Shown: piece after piece, positions 7,426-13,949 of the stretch
How positions within the stretch are numbered: position 1 is the first letter of the stretch
How the letters are laid out: each line of letters starts with the position of its first letter
Source: Caulifigura coniformis
GTDB lineage: Bacteria; Planctomycetota; Planctomycetia; Planctomycetales; Planctomycetaceae
Length of the DNA: 64,000 bases
Direction of reading: 5' to 3'
Assembly (NCBI RefSeq): GCF_007745175.1
Contig: NZ_CP036271.1
Span: 6,597,439 to 6,661,438 of the forward strand
Program-made: the position numbers and the translations under genes
The notes under the pieces: model-generated
The model's input: the letters and a program-made list of their open reading frames with translations, nothing else
Databases searched by the model: none
What the model was told of the DNA's origin: nothing

Positions 7426-7959
7426 TCAGGCGGCCTCTTCGATGTCCGAGATCCGGTTTTGCGGAATGTATGGAGCGAGTTCGTCGGACTGCCGGTCGAG
7501 CCGGAACTGCATGATGTAGGCGTCTTCGGCCGTGTCGTCGTAGTGGCAGCGAACCACCCGGACGGCCCGGAAACCCTGGGTGCGGAAGAACAGCTGGCCG
7601 TCGAGGTTGCTTTCGCGGAGATCGAGCAGGATCTCGTTGCGACGCTGTTGCGACAGCTTGTCGATCAGCCGGAGCACCATTTGTTTGCCGACGCCCATCC
7701 GGCGGACTTCCGGAGCGACGGCGAAGTTCAGGATGTGGAGCTTGGCCTTGTGCAGTTCATAGATCATGAACCCCACGATCTGATGATTCGCTTCGGCCAC
7801 CATGCCGATGCAGTTGCGCTGCCGCAGGCAGCAGAGGAAGTCTTCGTCAGTCCAGGCGGTGGCGAAGCTGGTCCGCTCGATCTGGAGAACCTCGGGCATG
7901 TCGCGGCGGATCAGCCAGCGAATCTGCACGTCGAGTTGTTGTTTCGTGATATTGCTCAC
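7426..7959 (-). CDS. rimI: ribosomal-protein-alanine N-acetyltransferase RimI-like
   Basis: GNAT-fold N-acetyltransferase of 177 residues. The acetyl-CoA pyrophosphate-binding loop is visible as VRRMGVGKQM (R/Q-x-x-G-x-G) near residue 90, preceded by the strand LHILNFAVAPE and followed by LDLRESNLDGQLFFRTQGFR, both typical for RimI, which acetylates the N terminus of ribosomal protein S18. The C-terminal 25 residues (LDRQSDELAPYIPQNR) extend beyond the usual end of about 150. Other GNAT substrates cannot be excluded from sequence alone. Confidence 0.85.
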   Translation of the reverse strand: MSNITKQQLDVQIRWLIRRDMPEVLQIERTSFATAWTDEDFLCCLRQRNCIGMVAEANHQIVGFMIYELHKAKLHILNFAVAPEVRRMGVGKQMVLRLIDKLSQQRRNEILLDLRESNLDGQLFFRTQGFRAVRVVRCHYDDTAEDAYIMQFRLDRQSDELAPYIPQNRISDIEEAA

Positions 7960-8233
7960 TTATGCCTCCATGCACCGGCAGCAGCATCGAGCCCCGATCG
8001 GGCACATCCGACGTTCCTTCGTCATCTGATCCCGTCACGCGAGCAAGTTAATGAATGGCACACAGCGGGAGAAGGCCTGTTGTGGGACGATCGCGAAAAC
8101 GAGGGGCGCATCTCCATCAATCCCCGTTTCGGCCGCTGCGAAGCGGCATCTTCCGCCGGTAAGATGCAAAACACGCTGCCTCCGGCGTCCCGATTCCGCC
8201 CCACCTGGCCCCGCTTTCCCACGCTCTTCCCGG

Positions 8234-8770
8234 ATGAATCAGGACACGGCTCATCCGCGGCTCGCCGGCCGCGTCGCGACCGCCACCACGCGGCTCATCC
8301 TGATCGCCATCGTGGCGGGCGGCCTCGTTACGGTCGCGATGAATCTCTGGCAGATGCGATCGACGGGCAACGCCTTACCTTCCACTACATCGGACACGGT
8401 TGCGCCGTTGAATGACCTCCTGCGCGACACTCTTCCTGTCGTCCAGGATCGAGTTCGGGGGAGTGAAGCGGCCGCACGGGACGCCGTCGTGAACAAGATT
8501 CGCGACCAGATCGCCGCCGCCGTGTCGGAAGTCGCGTCCCGGACGGGGGCCGTTGAAACGAAGGACGATCCATTCCGGGACGCGATCGAACTGGCCCGCG
8601 ATCCGGGAGGGGTCTGGTCCGTCCACCAGCTTCAGGAAGTGGGCCGCAGGATCGTCGGCGTCGCCCGATCCGGGCGGGAACCGGCGGTGCTGTTCTGGGG
8701 CGGCTATGATGAGGCCGGTCCCGGCGAATGGACCACCTGGATCATGCAGCTTCCGCTGCCGAAGGAGTGA
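8234..8770 (+). CDS. membrane-anchored protein of unknown function, coupled to pseudo-HtrA
   Basis: A 178-residue protein with one transmembrane helix at about residues 20-40 (TRLILIAIVAGGLVTVAMNL), then a helical stretch (about 55-105) and a C-terminal globular part ending GEWTTWIMQLPLPKE. I do not recognise a family. Its TGA stop (8768-8770) is two bases before the ATG of the next gene, and that gene's ribosome binding site (AAGGAG at 8762-8767) lies inside this coding region, so the two are translationally coupled and may work together. The open frame extends upstream to 8051, but ATG 8234 is the best start because the membrane helix follows it. Confidence 0.8.
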   Translation: MNQDTAHPRLAGRVATATTRLILIAIVAGGLVTVAMNLWQMRSTGNALPSTTSDTVAPLNDLLRDTLPVVQDRVRGSEAAARDAVVNKIRDQIAAAVSEVASRTGAVETKDDPFRDAIELARDPGGVWSVHQLQEVGRRIVGVARSGREPAVLFWGGYDEAGPGEWTTWIMQLPLPKE

Positions 8771-8772
8771 AG

Positions 8773-10785
8773 ATGAAGCTGATGTCAGAAACCATCCTGC
8801 GGGATGCCCGGGTTCTCCGAAGAAGCCGGGTTTCTTTCGGCGCGGCCCTCGTCCTCGCCGCGATCTTCGGCACGCCGGTCGCCCCACTCTCCGCGCAGTC
8901 CATCCCACTCCCGATCCTCGAGGAACGCGCGTTCCAACAGGCGGCCCTGAAGGCCGAAGCGTCGGTCGTCCGCATCGAGACGATCGGCGGCGTCGACGTG
9001 ATCGGCGAGACGCTGATCGCCAACGGGCCGACCTCCGGAGTCGTCGTCGGCGCCGATGGCTGGATCATCACCAGCTCGTTCAACTTTTTGTCCCAGCCGA
9101 CCTCCATTCTGGTGACGGTGGGCGAAGGCCAGCGACATCCTGCCAGGCTGGTCGCGAAGGATGAATCGAGACAGCTCACCCTGCTGAAAATCGATGCCGA
9201 AGGGTTGAAGACGCTCGAGGCCGTTCCCCGCGAGGAGTTTCGCGTCGGCCAGTGGACGATCGCACTGGGCCGGACCCTGGAACCGACGTTTCCCAACGTG
9301 AGCGTCGGAATCCTCAGCGCGCTCAATCGCATTTCCGGCAAGGCGATCCAGACCGATGCCAAGATCTCTCCGGTCAACTACGGAGGAGCGCTGGTCGACC
9401 TCAATGGTCGCTGCCTTGGCATCATTGTCCCGATGTCCCCCGACCGCGAAGAGGTGACCGCCGGCGTCGACTGGTACGACTCGGGAATCGGGTTCGCCGT
9501 TCCACTCGTCGACATCCTGAGGGTGGTCGACCGGCTCAAGGCCGGCGAGACCCTGAAGCCCGGCCGGTTGGGTATTCTCTATCCCGACAAGGGACTCCTG
9601 ACCGGCGAGGTGAAGATCGACAAGGTCCGGCCGCGTTCACCGGCCGAGGCCGCCGGGCTCCTCGCCAACGACGTGATTGTCGGGCTGGACGGGCAGGAGG
9701 TCGACAGGGCCGCAACCCTCAAGCAACTGCTCGGCCCGAAGTACGGCGGTGATTCGGTCGTGCTCAAGGTTCGCCGCGGAAGCGAGACGTTCGAGAAGCC
9801 CGTGACTCTCGTCAGCCAGATTCCACCTTTCGAACTCGGCTTTCTGGGGCTGCTCCCGGAACGGAAGCCGAAATCGGAACCGGGACCTGCTTCGATTCGT
9901 GCCGTGCTTCCGGGGTCTCCTGCGGAGACGGCTGGCCTGAAGCCGGGAATGGCCGTCATCAAAGTTGGAGACAAGTCGACTCCGTCTTTCGCGGATGTGC
10001 AGACGGCGCTCGAGACGCAGGCGGCCGGCGACAAAGTGACCCTGGAGATTGAAGAGAAGGGCCAGAAGTCGACGCGCGAGGCGACCTTGGCCGCCACGCC
10101 AGAGGCCGTGCCGGAGACACCCGCTGCTCCTGTGATTCCGACTCCGGCCGAGGCGCCGAAGGATCTCAAGACGGGTCGTTTCGTCGACACGATCGAGGGG
10201 GACGACCGTCGTTTCTGGGCCTACGTGCCCGAGCACTACAACCCGGCCTTTTCGTATGGCCTGGTCGTCTGGCTGCATCCTGAGGCGGACAAGCGGGAAG
10301 CCTCGACGCTCGAACTCTGGAAGTCGCACTGTGAAGAGCGCGGTCTGATTCTCGTCGCGCCGCCGGCGTCGAACGAGGAGTGGGGGGCGTCCGACGTCGA
10401 ATTCGTGTTGGGCGTGATTGCGAAGATGCAGAAACGCTACACGATCGACCCGGTACGCACCGTCGTCGTCGGCGAAGCGGAAGGAGGACGGCTGGCGCTG
10501 TTCCTGGGGCTCACGAAGCGAGACGTCGTCGCTGCGGTGGCGACCATCGGCTTCGCCCTTCCGGCGCGCGTTCCCGAAGTCGACCCCGAGAATCCCGTCC
10601 GGTTCCACGTTTCGACGTTCGACGGCAGCCCGACCGCTTCCGCCATCAGGAAGAGCATCGAGCCCTACCGCAAAGAGAAGTACCCCTTGATCCTGCAGGA
10701 ATGGAAAGGAGCCGGCCAGGAAGGCCCCACAGCGGAGACGGTCGGCGAACTCGTCCGCTGGATCGACACCCTCGACGGCGTCTGA
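8773..10785 (+). CDS. secreted HtrA-like pseudoprotease with two PDZ domains and esterase-like C-terminal domain
   Basis: About 670 residues. A basic N terminus and hydrophobic helix (about 20-41, ending LSAQS) suggests export. Residues 50-270 follow the HtrA/DegP trypsin-like fold (DGWIITSS, ARLVAKDESRQLTLLKI, QTDAKISPVNYGGAL), yet the three catalytic positions are changed: His to Phe103, Asp to Gln134, Ser to Tyr203. Two PDZ domains follow (about 275-355, RPRSPAEAAGLLANDVIVGL; about 370-455, LPGSPAETAGLKPGMAVIKV). After a Pro/Ala linker, residues 470-670 resemble a dienelactone-hydrolase/esterase domain, but the nucleophile elbow reads GEAEGG (Ala569 where Ser is expected) and no catalytic His is evident. 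The protein is likely a binding scaffold or sensor in the cell envelope, not an enzyme; this is inference. Confidence 0.88.
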   Translation: MKLMSETILRDARVLRRSRVSFGAALVLAAIFGTPVAPLSAQSIPLPILEERAFQQAALKAEASVVRIETIGGVDVIGETLIANGPTSGVVVGADGWIITSSFNFLSQPTSILVTVGEGQRHPARLVAKDESRQLTLLKIDAEGLKTLEAVPREEFRVGQWTIALGRTLEPTFPNVSVGILSALNRISGKAIQTDAKISPVNYGGALVDLNGRCLGIIVPMSPDREEVTAGVDWYDSGIGFAVPLVDILRVVDRLKAGETLKPGRLGILYPDKGLLTGEVKIDKVRPRSPAEAAGLLANDVIVGLDGQEVDRAATLKQLLGPKYGGDSVVLKVRRGSETFEKPVTLVSQIPPFELGFLGLLPERKPKSEPGPASIRAVLPGSPAETAGLKPGMAVIKVGDKSTPSFADVQTALETQAAGDKVTLEIEEKGQKSTREATLAATPEAVPETPAAPVIPTPAEAPKDLKTGRFVDTIEGDDRRFWAYVPEHYNPAFSYGLVVWLHPEADKREASTLELWKSHCEERGLILVAPPASNEEWGASDVEFVLGVIAKMQKRYTIDPVRTVVVGEAEGGRLALFLGLTKRDVVAAVATIGFALPARVPEVDPENPVRFHVSTFDGSPTASAIRKSIEPYRKEKYPLILQEWKGAGQEGPTAETVGELVRWIDTLDGV

Positions 10786-10839: not shown

Positions 10840-11445
10840 TTGCTCCGCACCATCCTGTTCGACCTCGGCAACGTCATCGTCCATTTCTCTCACGCCCGCA
10901 TGTGTGAGCAGATCGGCGCCGTGCTGGAATGGACGGGTCCCGAGACCCGCGAGTTTCTGATCGACTCGGGACTCATGTGGAACTTCGAACGCGGCCTCGT
11001 GACCGAGGGGGATCTCCTTGCCGCCGTCGAGAAACAGCGCGAACGGAAGATCGAGCTCGTCTCGCTGAGCACTGCGTGCAGCGACATCTTCCAGCTCAAC
11101 GAGCCGCTGGTTCCGGTGATCGAATCGCTCAAACGCCGGGGGTTGAGGCTGGTCGTCCTGTCCAATACGAGCCATTGGCATGTCGACTGGATTCGCCGCC
11201 ACTGGAACGTGCTCGATCTGTTCGACGAACTCGTCCTCTCCTATGAAGTCGGGGCGATCAAGCCGGAGCCGGCGATCTACGAGGCCGCGATGAAGGCGAT
11301 CCGCTGCCGCCCGGAGGAATGCTTCTACACGGACGACATCCCCGCCTACGTCGCCGCGGGTCGTGAGTTTGGACTGCAGGCCGAAGTGTTCACGGACGTG
11401 GCCGCGCTAATCCCGCAACTGGCGGCGCGTGGCATCACGATCTGA
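10840..11445 (+). CDS. HAD-superfamily hydrolase, YihX-like phosphatase
   Basis: A 201-residue subfamily IA haloacid-dehalogenase protein. Motif I is FDLGNVI with nucleophile Asp8; the second Asp of the usual DxD is Gly, as in E. coli YihX (alpha-D-glucose-1-phosphate phosphatase). Motif II is VVLSNTS (Thr/Ser), motif III Lys in GAIKPEPAIYEAA, motif IV DD in CFYTDDIPAYV. Probably a sugar-phosphate phosphatase; the substrate is not determined. Translation appears to start at the TTG at 10840, since the fold begins there and no ATG is near. It lies 54 bases after the pseudo-HtrA gene, so it may be cotranscribed. Confidence 0.87.
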   Translation: MLRTILFDLGNVIVHFSHARMCEQIGAVLEWTGPETREFLIDSGLMWNFERGLVTEGDLLAAVEKQRERKIELVSLSTACSDIFQLNEPLVPVIESLKRRGLRLVVLSNTSHWHVDWIRRHWNVLDLFDELVLSYEVGAIKPEPAIYEAAMKAIRCRPEECFYTDDIPAYVAAGREFGLQAEVFTDVAALIPQLAARGITI

Positions 11446-11537
11446 ATCCTCTCAGCCGCTGCCGATTGACGTTCGGGGGACCGTTGCGGAAGCTGAGGGG
11501 CGCACGATTGCGACCTCTTTCTCCGCAGGGCAGGGAG

Positions 11538-13949
11538 ATGATTATGGTGCTCACGATTCTCCGGGCGGCGGGACGCTTCGCGCCCCGCGTGAACGCTCTC
11601 GCGATTCTCTCGCTTGTGGCTTTGGCGCTGGCGTCGTCGACGGTGGCCCAGGACGCGGAACCGAAGATCGGCGCCATTTCGGGCATCGTGGTCGATGCGG
11701 ACACCGGGGGCGTCGTTCCCGATGTTGAAGTCCGCATGTTCAAACGTCCCCCCGGCGGCGGGAACCGCCTGCAGTTCAAGATCACGCGTGTGCGTAGCGA
11801 TGCAGACGGCCGCTATCGGTTCGAGAACCTCAGCCCCGGCGACTATGGCATCTACGCCTTCCACGGAACGAAGGCGTCGCGCACGAAAGACTTCGACTAC
11901 GCCAGGGCAAAGATCGCGGACGACGGATCCTCGGAGCCCGTCGATCTGAGGCTGACGGAGGCGCTCACCCTCAAGGTCAGGGTTCTCGCGGAACAAACCG
12001 GGCAGCCCATCGAGGGGGCTTTCGTCCGATTGCGCTGGACCGATCTTGATGACACTGCCGCGACAGATGGGCACGGGGCTGTGCTGATTCATGGCCTGAC
12101 GCCTCACGATCAGCACATCGAGGCGAAGGCACCGGGCTTCCAGCTGAAAGCGGTCACGCAGACGCTAAAAGACCCACTCACAGAAGTGACCTTCAAGCTG
12201 CCGCCCGGAGGGTTCATTCAGGGAAAGGTCGTGAACGATCAGGGGAGGCCGCTGGCTGGCGTGAGCATCGGCGCCTCGCCCGAGCGTGGTTCCGACGGCT
12301 TCGATTCCGTGAAGTCGGACGAAGAGGGAAAGTTCACTCTGAACTACGTCCCGCTCACGCAGTCGGTCCGCATTTATGCCTCGTTGAAAGAGCACGAGGC
12401 TCACCACCAGTCGATCTCGCTCAATGGCGCGCCCTATCGGCCGCTGGAGATCGTCCTTCCTTCCCGACGCCACGGAGGAGACGCCGACATCACCGTGGTC
12501 GATCCCGAAGGTCAGCCTGTGCCAGGGGCGGAGATACTCAACTACGGCTCCTCCTCTGGCGATTATCACAAGGTGAAAACCAACGACCGCGGCGAATGTT
12601 CAATCACCAGGTTGTATCTGCGGCATTTGGGAAAAGGGGCCGAGTTGGCAGTGCGCGCGGAGGGATTCGCGCCCCAGTTGATTGAAGTGATGCCGTCGAC
12701 CGATGGCCCCGCGAGGTTGACGGTCAACCTCGAAAAGGGGCATCGCTACCGCGGCCGGCTCGTCAACGCGGCCGGCGAGCCAGTCTCCAATGCGTCGGTC
12801 TACGTGAACAACGGCAACTACGGTTCCGGGCTCTTCGGACACAAGCTCGACGTCGATAAGGAAGGACGTTTTTCATCGACGTCTCTCCCGCCGGAGTCGA
12901 CGGCGAACATCAGCGCCAGCGGGTACACACCGCAGGACCAGGTGAAGATTCCCCTCGATCAGGAGGAAGAGCACGTCATTACTCTGGAGTCCACAGGTCA
13001 CTTCCGCGGCCTCGTGACCAACGCCGCCACCGGTGCGCCGGTCCGTCGGTTCAACGTCAAGCTGGGCTTCGCCCGCAAGCCCCCGGCGGGCGCCCAGCGG
13101 TCTCGAGGCATTCCCTCCGACTGGGGCGACAGCGGACGCACGATCAACGACGACTCAGGCCGATGGCTCTGGGAAGAACTCCCGAACAACACCGCCTACG
13201 CCCTGACCATCGAGGCTGAGGGGTTTGATGCGACTCACGTCCCGGTCGCCGTCACGAACCGGGGCGAATCGGATCTTGAGATCAAGATGCAGCCGATCGA
13301 TCCCGGGTCGCTGGTCGAGGTCGCCGGCGTCATTCTCGACCCGAAGGGAGATCCGATCGAGGGGGTCCTGGTTCACCTGATCGGATGCGATCCGAAACTG
13401 GCCGCGAACGATCCGAACGGCCAGCGCGAAGTCCCCATGCACCTGATCCGCATCCATCAGGCAAAGAACATCGCCGCCTGCAGGTTCGCGCATGAAGCCA
13501 CAACAGCGGCCGACGGCAGCTTCCGGTTTCCCAGGGTTTCCAGTCGAATCGGGCTGCAGCTCGTCTATTGGGGCGACGAAACCCCTTCGACGCGGGTCCG
13601 GAAGCTGGAGGAGCGAACGGCGGAACAACTGGGCCGGCTCGAACTGCTCGCGCCGGCCGGCGTCACGATCACTGGACGCATCAATCTGAAAGCGTTTCCG
13701 GATCCGGGCCGGGTGTCCGTTCGCTCGACCGAGGAAACGTTCGACTCGCGGGACGTCAGTTTCAAGGCCGGGGATGATCGCTCGACGTTCACGATCAAGG
13801 GAGTCTCGGCCGGCACTGTGAACGTCACGCTGATGAGCGAGGCCGTTCCGTATCGCGAGAATGGGACCACGTTCTACAGGAGCAGCAGTCTGGGCAATCG
13901 AACCGTGACCGCGGGCCCCGGCGAGACGGTCGAAGTCCATTTCGAGTAG
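11538..13949 (+). CDS. large secreted protein made of carboxypeptidase-regulatory-like domains
   Basis: About 803 residues with an N-terminal hydrophobic export signal (LAILSLVALALASSTVAQ). The rest is a chain of about seven or eight beta-sandwich modules of the carboxypeptidase-regulatory type, each with a pattern like ISGIVVDADTGGVVPDVEV, IQGKVVNDQGRPLAGVSI, YRGRLVNAAGEPVSNASV, FRGLVTNAATGAPVRRF and VAGVILDPKGDPIEGVLV. No catalytic motif is seen, so an adhesive or structural role outside the cytoplasm is likely. The ATG at 11538 follows a purine-rich stretch (gcagggagatg); an upstream in-frame extension to 11466 lacks a signal. Family size and spacing of modules are from reading only. Confidence 0.85.
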   Translation: MIMVLTILRAAGRFAPRVNALAILSLVALALASSTVAQDAEPKIGAISGIVVDADTGGVVPDVEVRMFKRPPGGGNRLQFKITRVRSDADGRYRFENLSPGDYGIYAFHGTKASRTKDFDYARAKIADDGSSEPVDLRLTEALTLKVRVLAEQTGQPIEGAFVRLRWTDLDDTAATDGHGAVLIHGLTPHDQHIEAKAPGFQLKAVTQTLKDPLTEVTFKLPPGGFIQGKVVNDQGRPLAGVSIGASPERGSDGFDSVKSDEEGKFTLNYVPLTQSVRIYASLKEHEAHHQSISLNGAPYRPLEIVLPSRRHGGDADITVVDPEGQPVPGAEILNYGSSSGDYHKVKTNDRGECSITRLYLRHLGKGAELAVRAEGFAPQLIEVMPSTDGPARLTVNLEKGHRYRGRLVNAAGEPVSNASVYVNNGNYGSGLFGHKLDVDKEGRFSSTSLPPESTANISASGYTPQDQVKIPLDQEEEHVITLESTGHFRGLVTNAATGAPVRRFNVKLGFARKPPAGAQRSRGIPSDWGDSGRTINDDSGRWLWEELPNNTAYALTIEAEGFDATHVPVAVTNRGESDLEIKMQPIDPGSLVEVAGVILDPKGDPIEGVLVHLIGCDPKLAANDPNGQREVPMHLIRIHQAKNIAACRFAHEATTAADGSFRFPRVSSRIGLQLVYWGDETPSTRVRKLEERTAEQLGRLELLAPAGVTITGRINLKAFPDPGRVSVRSTEETFDSRDVSFKAGDDRSTFTIKGVSAGTVNVTLMSEAVPYRENGTTFYRSSSLGNRTVTAGPGETVEVHFE

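Follow-up and report, generated by a model that had tools for sequence, protein, structure and literature searches.

Why a bacterium should keep an intact gene for a protein that has the fold of an HtrA protease and none of its catalytic residues is the question raised by a gene of Caulifigura coniformis, here called D. The gene lies within the window, by which we mean the whole stretch of 64,000 nucleotides analysed, corresponding to bases 6597439-6661438 of a single-contig genome of 6.76 Mb. Its reading frame is intact from an ATG at 8773 to a stop codon at 10783-10785, and AAGGAG stands directly 5' of the ATG, overlapping the end of the preceding gene. The features of D, in window coordinates, are as follows.

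8773..10785, + strand: gene D, encoding 670 amino acids in the order HtrA pseudoprotease, PDZ1, PDZ2, degenerate alpha/beta-hydrolase-like domain
8773..8898, + strand: probable signal peptide, residues 1-42, read from the sequence (basic start, hydrophobic stretch, ending in LSAQ)
8902..9552, + strand: chymotrypsin-fold (HtrA) domain, approximately residues 44-260, inactive by sequence (Pfam Trypsin_2, structural model, VIA-align)
9079..9081, + strand: Phe103 (TTC) at the position of the catalytic His (codon reading, alignment)
9172..9174, + strand: Gln134 (CAG) at the position of the catalytic Asp (codon reading, alignment)
9373..9387, + strand: VNYGG in place of GNSGG, with Val201 at the position of the oxyanion-hole residue Gly193 and Tyr203 at that of the catalytic Ser
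9559..9807, + strand: PDZ1, approximately residues 263-345, with a GRLGI loop (Pfam)
9835..10092, + strand: PDZ2, approximately residues 355-440, with a FLGLL loop (Pfam)
10174..10782, + strand: alpha/beta-hydrolase-like domain, approximately residues 468-670 (weak family matches; order of strands and helices in the model)
10477..10479, + strand: Ala569 (GCG) at the nucleophile position of the hydrolase-like domain (GEAEGG)

Pfam detects Trypsin_2 at residues 88-217 (3.7e-19) and PDZ at residues 277-341 and 356-427, and the NCBIfam model for DegP/HtrA gives D 173 bits against a cut-off of 416. An AlphaFold2 model of D (58 sequences; mean pLDDT 90.8, pTM 0.83) superposes over approximately residues 50-350 on HtrA structures by VIA-align, including 1y8t_A (Z 28.1, rmsd 3.9 A over 273 residues) and the DegP chain 8f0a_A (Z 27.4, rmsd 3.7 A over 281), which bears out the view of the first-pass annotation that the landmarks of the HtrA fold are all present. 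Its assignment of Phe103, Gln134 and Tyr203 (codon TAC, 9379-9381) to the positions of the triad His, Asp and Ser also holds, both in the codons and in the alignment with active HtrAs, and the two PDZ domains that it described as intact are recovered by Pfam and have conserved glycines at binding-loop positions (G264, G267, G359). D consequently shows the chymotrypsin-like fold followed by PDZ that marks an HtrA, and lacks both the His-Asp-Ser triad and the oxyanion-hole Gly193 that mark an HtrA enzyme.

The same state is found in every D sequence collected. We gathered 185 D proteins (104 and 80 from two locus sets, plus that of the window), comprising 154 distinct sequences by a 130-residue key; used as the query of a locus search, the single window protein returned no relatives, and the alignment returned its best 80 loci. 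The triad His, Asp and Ser are each present in 0/154 distinct sequences, such that the substitution seen in the window extends to other planctomycetes and no ortholog retaining the triad occurs among the D sequences collected. Phe occupies the His position in 141/154, Met is the commonest residue at the Asp position (90/154), and the Ser position carries Tyr in 153/154 and Val in a single sequence (L069). Gly193 of the oxyanion hole is kept in only 1/154, with Val (76) and Ala (27) as its main replacements. Where active HtrAs have GNSGG, in other words, D has come to carry a conserved xNYGG. D130, S182, R186, Q193, N202, Y203, G204, G205, Y235 and D236 are kept in 153 or 154 of the 154 sequences, and over residues 44-445 there is no conserved His or Cys column that might supply a catalytic residue from another position in the HtrA domain (in any one column, His occurs in at most 42% and Cys in at most 8% of the 154); the window protein has a single His within residues 44-260. 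Judged from the alignment, the conserved residues around xNYGG and the lack of a conserved His or Cys point to selection for a domain that would be dead yet specific, with no sign of a replacement active site.

We also considered whether D might represent a local mutation or a decaying gene. Both can be ruled out, because the substitutions occur in every D sequence collected and because matches at E 1e-30 or better are near-universal in the window's family and order: they are found in 142/150 genomes of the family, in 118/119 of the family genomes with completeness of 90% or more and contamination of 5% or less, and in 129/130 genomes of an order sample, while no other HtrA of C. coniformis itself scores better than 3.5e-23 against D. 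The earlier conclusion that a complete frame speaks against decay is accordingly strongly supported, the gene being intact, selected and in the same state in 154/154 distinct sequences. In a phylum sample, 68/294 genomes have a D match (20 of these from the class), the weaker of which may not be D, and a profile search with the D alignment matched 267 of the 294 phylum genomes, a figure that is not a count of D since most of these matches score lower and are possibly ordinary HtrAs.

Clustering the open frames beside D across 104 relatives revealed a shared run of genes upstream of it, which takes the form A-B-C-D on one strand in most relatives examined. The first-pass annotation makes no mention of this set because it is not visible within the window. 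B (approximately 600 aa) consists of HtrA and PDZ domains followed by a C-terminal domain, and the triad His, Asp and Ser are present in 95/95 of the sequences that cover all three columns (the set has 122 distinct sequences, of which 26 are fragments without the triad columns and 1 shows only the Ser). The model of B (pLDDT 86.1, pTM 0.84) matches the active HtrAs 2z9i_A (Z 32.7, rmsd 3.7 A over 281) and 3otp_F (Z 32.1, rmsd 2.5 A over 285), the structure matches listed for the D and B models being HtrA chains, and from its sequence B is expected to be proteolytic. C (approximately 350 aa) is a shorter HtrA-PDZ protein in which the catalytic Ser is present in 0/119 sequences, being replaced by Ala (72), Gly (22), Gln (8), Pro (7) and others; the His is present in 58 of the 119, the Asp in 54 and Gly193 in all 119. 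Since Gly193 is lost in D and kept in C, we suggest that the two dead proteins differ, with C keeping a formally activatable oxyanion loop and D having none. By fold and likely partnership D and C belong with the HtrAs, and neither is classifiable as an HtrA protease enzyme; Pfam matching alone makes proteins of the B, C and D types look like trypsin-like peptidases, and they are therefore easily miscounted as enzymes.

The remaining parts of the run are less distinctive. A encodes approximately 350-400 aa and has an NPCBM domain in both of the two proteins tested; an example is the first gene of the run at L180:2457-3596. The C-terminal domain of B is conserved and approximately 200 aa long (e.g. 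L174:4793-5440, in a locus of Thalassoglobus neptunius that contains all four of A, B, C and D). A sequence-profile search of the PDB with this domain gave no match of value (best E 0.37), and Pfam DUF4292 matches it weakly in 6/30 members (best 6e-4); we take DUF4292 to be a LolA-like family, and make no claim from the match.

A tree built from 83 protease-PDZ cores (quick method, without bootstrap) resolves B, C and D as one group each (SH-aLRT 100, 99 and 100, respectively), all of them separate from six further HtrAs of the C. coniformis genome. Two scattered HtrAs of that genome (L003 and L010) fall in the B and C groups. B lies there at 4061653-4063386 (-), C at 3728967-3729977 (+) and D at 6606211, meaning that the three genes are scattered and none has been lost; the best A-like gene, 32% identical, is at 3548671.

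Elsewhere the genes are closely linked. Among loci hand-picked for diversity from genome match lists before their neighbours were inspected (L055-L114), C lies upstream of D on the same strand in 43/43 outside the window's family (23 from the same class and 20 from others), as part of a B-C fusion in five of the 43, and the C-D gap is below 0.5 kb in 42/43 and 1.15 kb in the other (L074). Inside the family, C is upstream of D in 38/61 loci. For 3 of the 23 family loci without it, the sequence upstream of D is shorter than 0.4 kb; the other 20 extend 1.2 kb or more upstream, which shows a genuine break of the run within some of the family. Among the best 80 loci listed, 62 have at least 4.8 kb of DNA upstream of D, and within these A, B and C are all present in 47, B and C in 49, and none of them in 13; the median A-B, B-C and C-D gaps for the best 80 loci listed are 2, 3.5 and 33.5 bases.

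Co-retention follows the same pattern. Across the same 248 class genomes, D is found in 196 (E 1e-30), C in 198 (1e-25) and B in 196 (1e-60), and a comparison of the listings by eye shows discordance only in G176 (C only, weak), G306 (no D) and G310 (no B). None of the three is found in 50 of the 248, which makes the set dispensable. Family f2 accounts for 18/20 of the C-less class genomes listed (30 more being unlisted); B and D are not seen in f2 either, so that all three genes appear to be missing from it as one block. Single-frame fusions of B and C occur in five loci of four families (L068 in f11, L079 and L081 in f101, L083 in f54, L092 in f58). Fusions of the C-D type occur in two loci (L207 and L210), which belong to one genus and therefore count as one event.

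The last two loci belong to a second and distant trio, x1-x2-x3, found among 12 loci from the phylum profile list (L203-L214) that were chosen partly for visible neighbouring HtrA matches, and which therefore give no measure of how frequent this trio is. The gene order is x1-x2-x3 in L203, L204, L206, L208 and L211, and x3-x1-x2, equivalent to the order of B-C-D, in L209; L207 and L210 have x1 and x2 in one frame with two HtrA-type domains, the stretches retrieved for L205, L213 and L214 show two genes each, and L212 combines degenerate frames with an active one. The full triad is present in x3 in 12/12 loci and in no x1 or x2. The Ser is missing from x1, some frames of which are cut by the locus edge; x2 keeps the Ser and has lost the His in L206 and L211, and in L209 has Thr at the Ser position, with the His uncertain by one position. 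A tree of 69 rows places x3 beside B (96), unites x2 and D (92), and sets C and x1 together apart from all other sequences (84); given the quick method used, only the grouping of x3 with B is strong. Other families thus also have one apparently active and two apparently dead paralogs, and the groupings would fit a triplication early in the phylum, without amounting to proof of one. Two x1-x2-x3 trios (L203 and L204) lie approximately 11 kb apart on contig C21 of genome G533.

Our preferred explanation, to which we give a probability of roughly 0.6, is that D is an exported HtrA paralog whose protease activity has been lost permanently, and which is retained because it serves a mixed HtrA assembly as a dedicated non-catalytic subunit. 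Trimers of protease domains are described as the building unit of HtrAs (PMC4877387, PMC3640471), and the co-inheritance of one triad-bearing paralog with two dead ones, together with fusions tying C to B and C to D, suggests a mixed trimer or oligomer. The partners of D would be B and C, whose protease-type domains would pack with its own as in HtrA trimers or in a mixed higher oligomer. B alone would cut, and C and D would shape access and control, their PDZ domains (joined, in the class to which C. coniformis belongs, by D's hydrolase-like domain) capturing or positioning substrates or allosteric peptides. The dilution of one active site among dead neighbours could turn a general degrader into a restrained, signal-gated processing protease. 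A more specific version, which we hold tentatively and consider less likely than not, is that Planctomycetota have a heterotrimeric HtrA of 1:1:1 stoichiometry with a single active site, in which B cuts while the dead C and D complete the trimer and provide PDZ gating, and that an early triplication has left two surviving versions of it (B-C-D and x1-x2-x3). Several considerations weigh against a mixed assembly. The genes are scattered in C. coniformis and in some of its family, B resembles an ordinary HtrA and could trimerise with itself, non-interacting proteins of a single pathway would also be expected to share gene runs and to be lost together, and the set is absent from some class genomes. 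The MamE/MamO results given below, in which no contact was detected and the MamO protease domain did not suffice by itself, also count against it.

The role proposed in the first-pass annotation, that of a scaffold or sensor, can be extended to a free-standing scaffold, chaperone or sensor in which D forms a homotrimer, its PDZ domains bind unfolded or C-terminally exposed envelope proteins, and only a pathway is shared with B and C. The conserved loop glycines of the PDZ domains are in keeping with such a role, as is the persistence of D at a distance from B and C in some of the family, and inactive HtrA variants are reported to still protect cells (review PMC11642142). However, by itself this explanation accounts neither for the joint retention or absence of B, C and D, nor for the pairwise fusions, nor for the set of one active and two dead paralogs in the second lineage, and we consider it unlikely. 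Given that D is co-inherited with a B that keeps the triad and a C that lacks the Ser, a role as subunit in a mixed HtrA complex accounts better for the evidence. A different relationship with B, in which D or C is an antagonist or decoy that shields the substrates or peptides of B from cutting while remaining outside its oligomer, would agree with the fold and PDZ type that D shares with B and with their co-encoding; yet the B-C fusions join a dead domain to the protease chain, an arrangement better suited to a structural subunit than to a free decoy, and we regard this as improbable.

Two further possibilities would give the dead domains a chemistry of their own. D might have been repurposed in the manner of MamO, an inactive HtrA that is paired with MamE and carries a di-histidine metal site on its surface (PMC4794232); in that case the dead domain of D would hold metal ions or some other small ligand. 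D130 and D236 are conserved acidic residues that might act as ligands, but the low occupancy of even the best His and Cys columns in the HtrA-PDZ part of D makes a comparable site very hard to envisage, and we attach little probability to it. Least credible to us is hidden catalysis by the HtrA or hydrolase-like domain through residues at other positions. Ser101, Ser182, Ser199, Asp130, Asp236, Tyr203 and Tyr235 are nearly invariant in D, and a few hydrolase-like domains (6/135) have candidate Ser, Asp and His residues; against this, D offers no conserved His or Cys as base or nucleophile, the oxyanion Gly is replaced in 153/154 sequences, and the nucleophile column of the hydrolase-like domain is scattered.

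Compared with DegP, DegQ and DegS, D shares the fold and the domain order HtrA-PDZ(-PDZ), and differs in the loss of the whole triad and the oxyanion Gly and in the addition of a hydrolase-like domain. Among the nearest precedents is the pair MamE and MamO of magnetotactic bacteria, a triad-bearing and a dead HtrA kept together in one gene cluster, the dead one having a residue other than glycine at 193 (PMC4794232). D likewise has a co-encoded triad-bearing HtrA in B, although the genes are scattered in the window's own genome. MamO is required for MamE-dependent proteolysis without needing its own triad, its protease domain alone is insufficient to activate MamE, the transporter domain being needed, and no physical interaction between the two was detected in that account (PMC4794232). 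Unlike D, which has no triad residue, no conserved His from which a di-histidine site could be built and no TauE-like domain, MamO keeps the His and Asp, the two-histidine metal site and a TauE-like membrane domain (PMC4794232), and the planctomycete set further differs from MamE/MamO in that its dead paralogs number two and belong to separate clades. The authors of the MamO study read the combination of an active with a dead HtrA as a sign of selection (PMC4794232), and this combination recurs here in an unrelated group.

Plant Deg7, the other near precedent, also brings a potentially active and a degenerate HtrA domain together in one system, and the dead protease domain of AtDeg7 is reportedly involved in trimerization (PMC3473262). 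It is described, however, as one fused chain with one dead domain, whereas the planctomycete set usually consists of three genes, with fusions in some lineages. Arabidopsis Deg5/Deg8 is an HtrA hetero-oligomer of two different paralogs, but Deg5 keeps His147, Asp188 and Ser266 while its protease activity went undetected, and the complex is described as built from homotrimers (PMC3640471, PMC4877387). Deg genes with mutated peptidase domains are reported from two named cyanobacterial strains, as single cases for which the available portion of the source describes no linked active partner (PMC4877387). Among openly licensed papers, titles and abstract openings reveal no account of the planctomycete B-C-D set, and the terms "inactive" and "catalytic triad" are absent from the available portion of a paper giving counts of planctomycete PDZ proteins (PMC6411480). 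Reports on three Streptomyces HtrAs (PMC5157995) and on an htrA gene of Rhodopirellula baltica named in the context of cold shock (PMC2754498) have, in the portions available, no bearing on the question.

Should the preferred explanation, that of a mixed HtrA assembly, prove correct, the occurrence of one live and two dead paralogs, each marked by a conserved signature of its own, across many lineages of one phylum would represent a division of labour among HtrAs. The proteasome and ClpP/ClpR provide precedents for such a division. Natural triples and natural fusions would, in addition, make the function of pseudoproteases testable.

The C-terminal domain of D shows a looser pattern of loss than the HtrA domain. 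Pfam matches to it are weak (BD-FAE 0.0065, Esterase 0.013), and an NCBIfam model of the PHB-depolymerase type matches residues 477-592 at 2.1e-11, below its cut-off. This is a distant likeness to PHB-depolymerase/esterase-type hydrolases, from which D differs by loss of the nucleophile and the His in the window protein and most relatives. The first-pass statement that this domain lacks its catalytic residues stands for the window protein, where Ala569 replaces the nucleophile Ser and Gln649 the catalytic His, and needs qualification as a general rule, given that 6 of the 135 distinct D sequences with the domain retain candidate Ser, Asp and His residues (L137, L138, L139, L149, L155 and L166). 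These six suggest that a minority of D proteins may have retained an enzymatic hydrolase-like domain. At the nucleophile column the residues found include Gly, Ala, Asp, Gln and Glu, among others. Outside the class, 19/20 D loci are without the hydrolase-like domain, and their frame lengths suggest that the proteins stop after approximately one PDZ domain.

The immediate neighbours of D in the window are of a different kind from the shared run. Directly upstream is a small gene with one hydrophobic segment (8051-8770, likely start 8234), whose only homolog among the 104 loci, 30% identical, is in a locus of the same genus (L011). When this frame, a HAD phosphatase (10840-11445) and an acetyltransferase (7426-7959) were searched for in the 104 loci (tblastn, E 1e-4), they recurred in L011 alone, many of the loci tested having a flank of only approximately 1.5 kb. 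Further downstream of D, an open frame of 827 aa (11466-13949) contains carboxypeptidase-regulatory-like domains in seven stretches.
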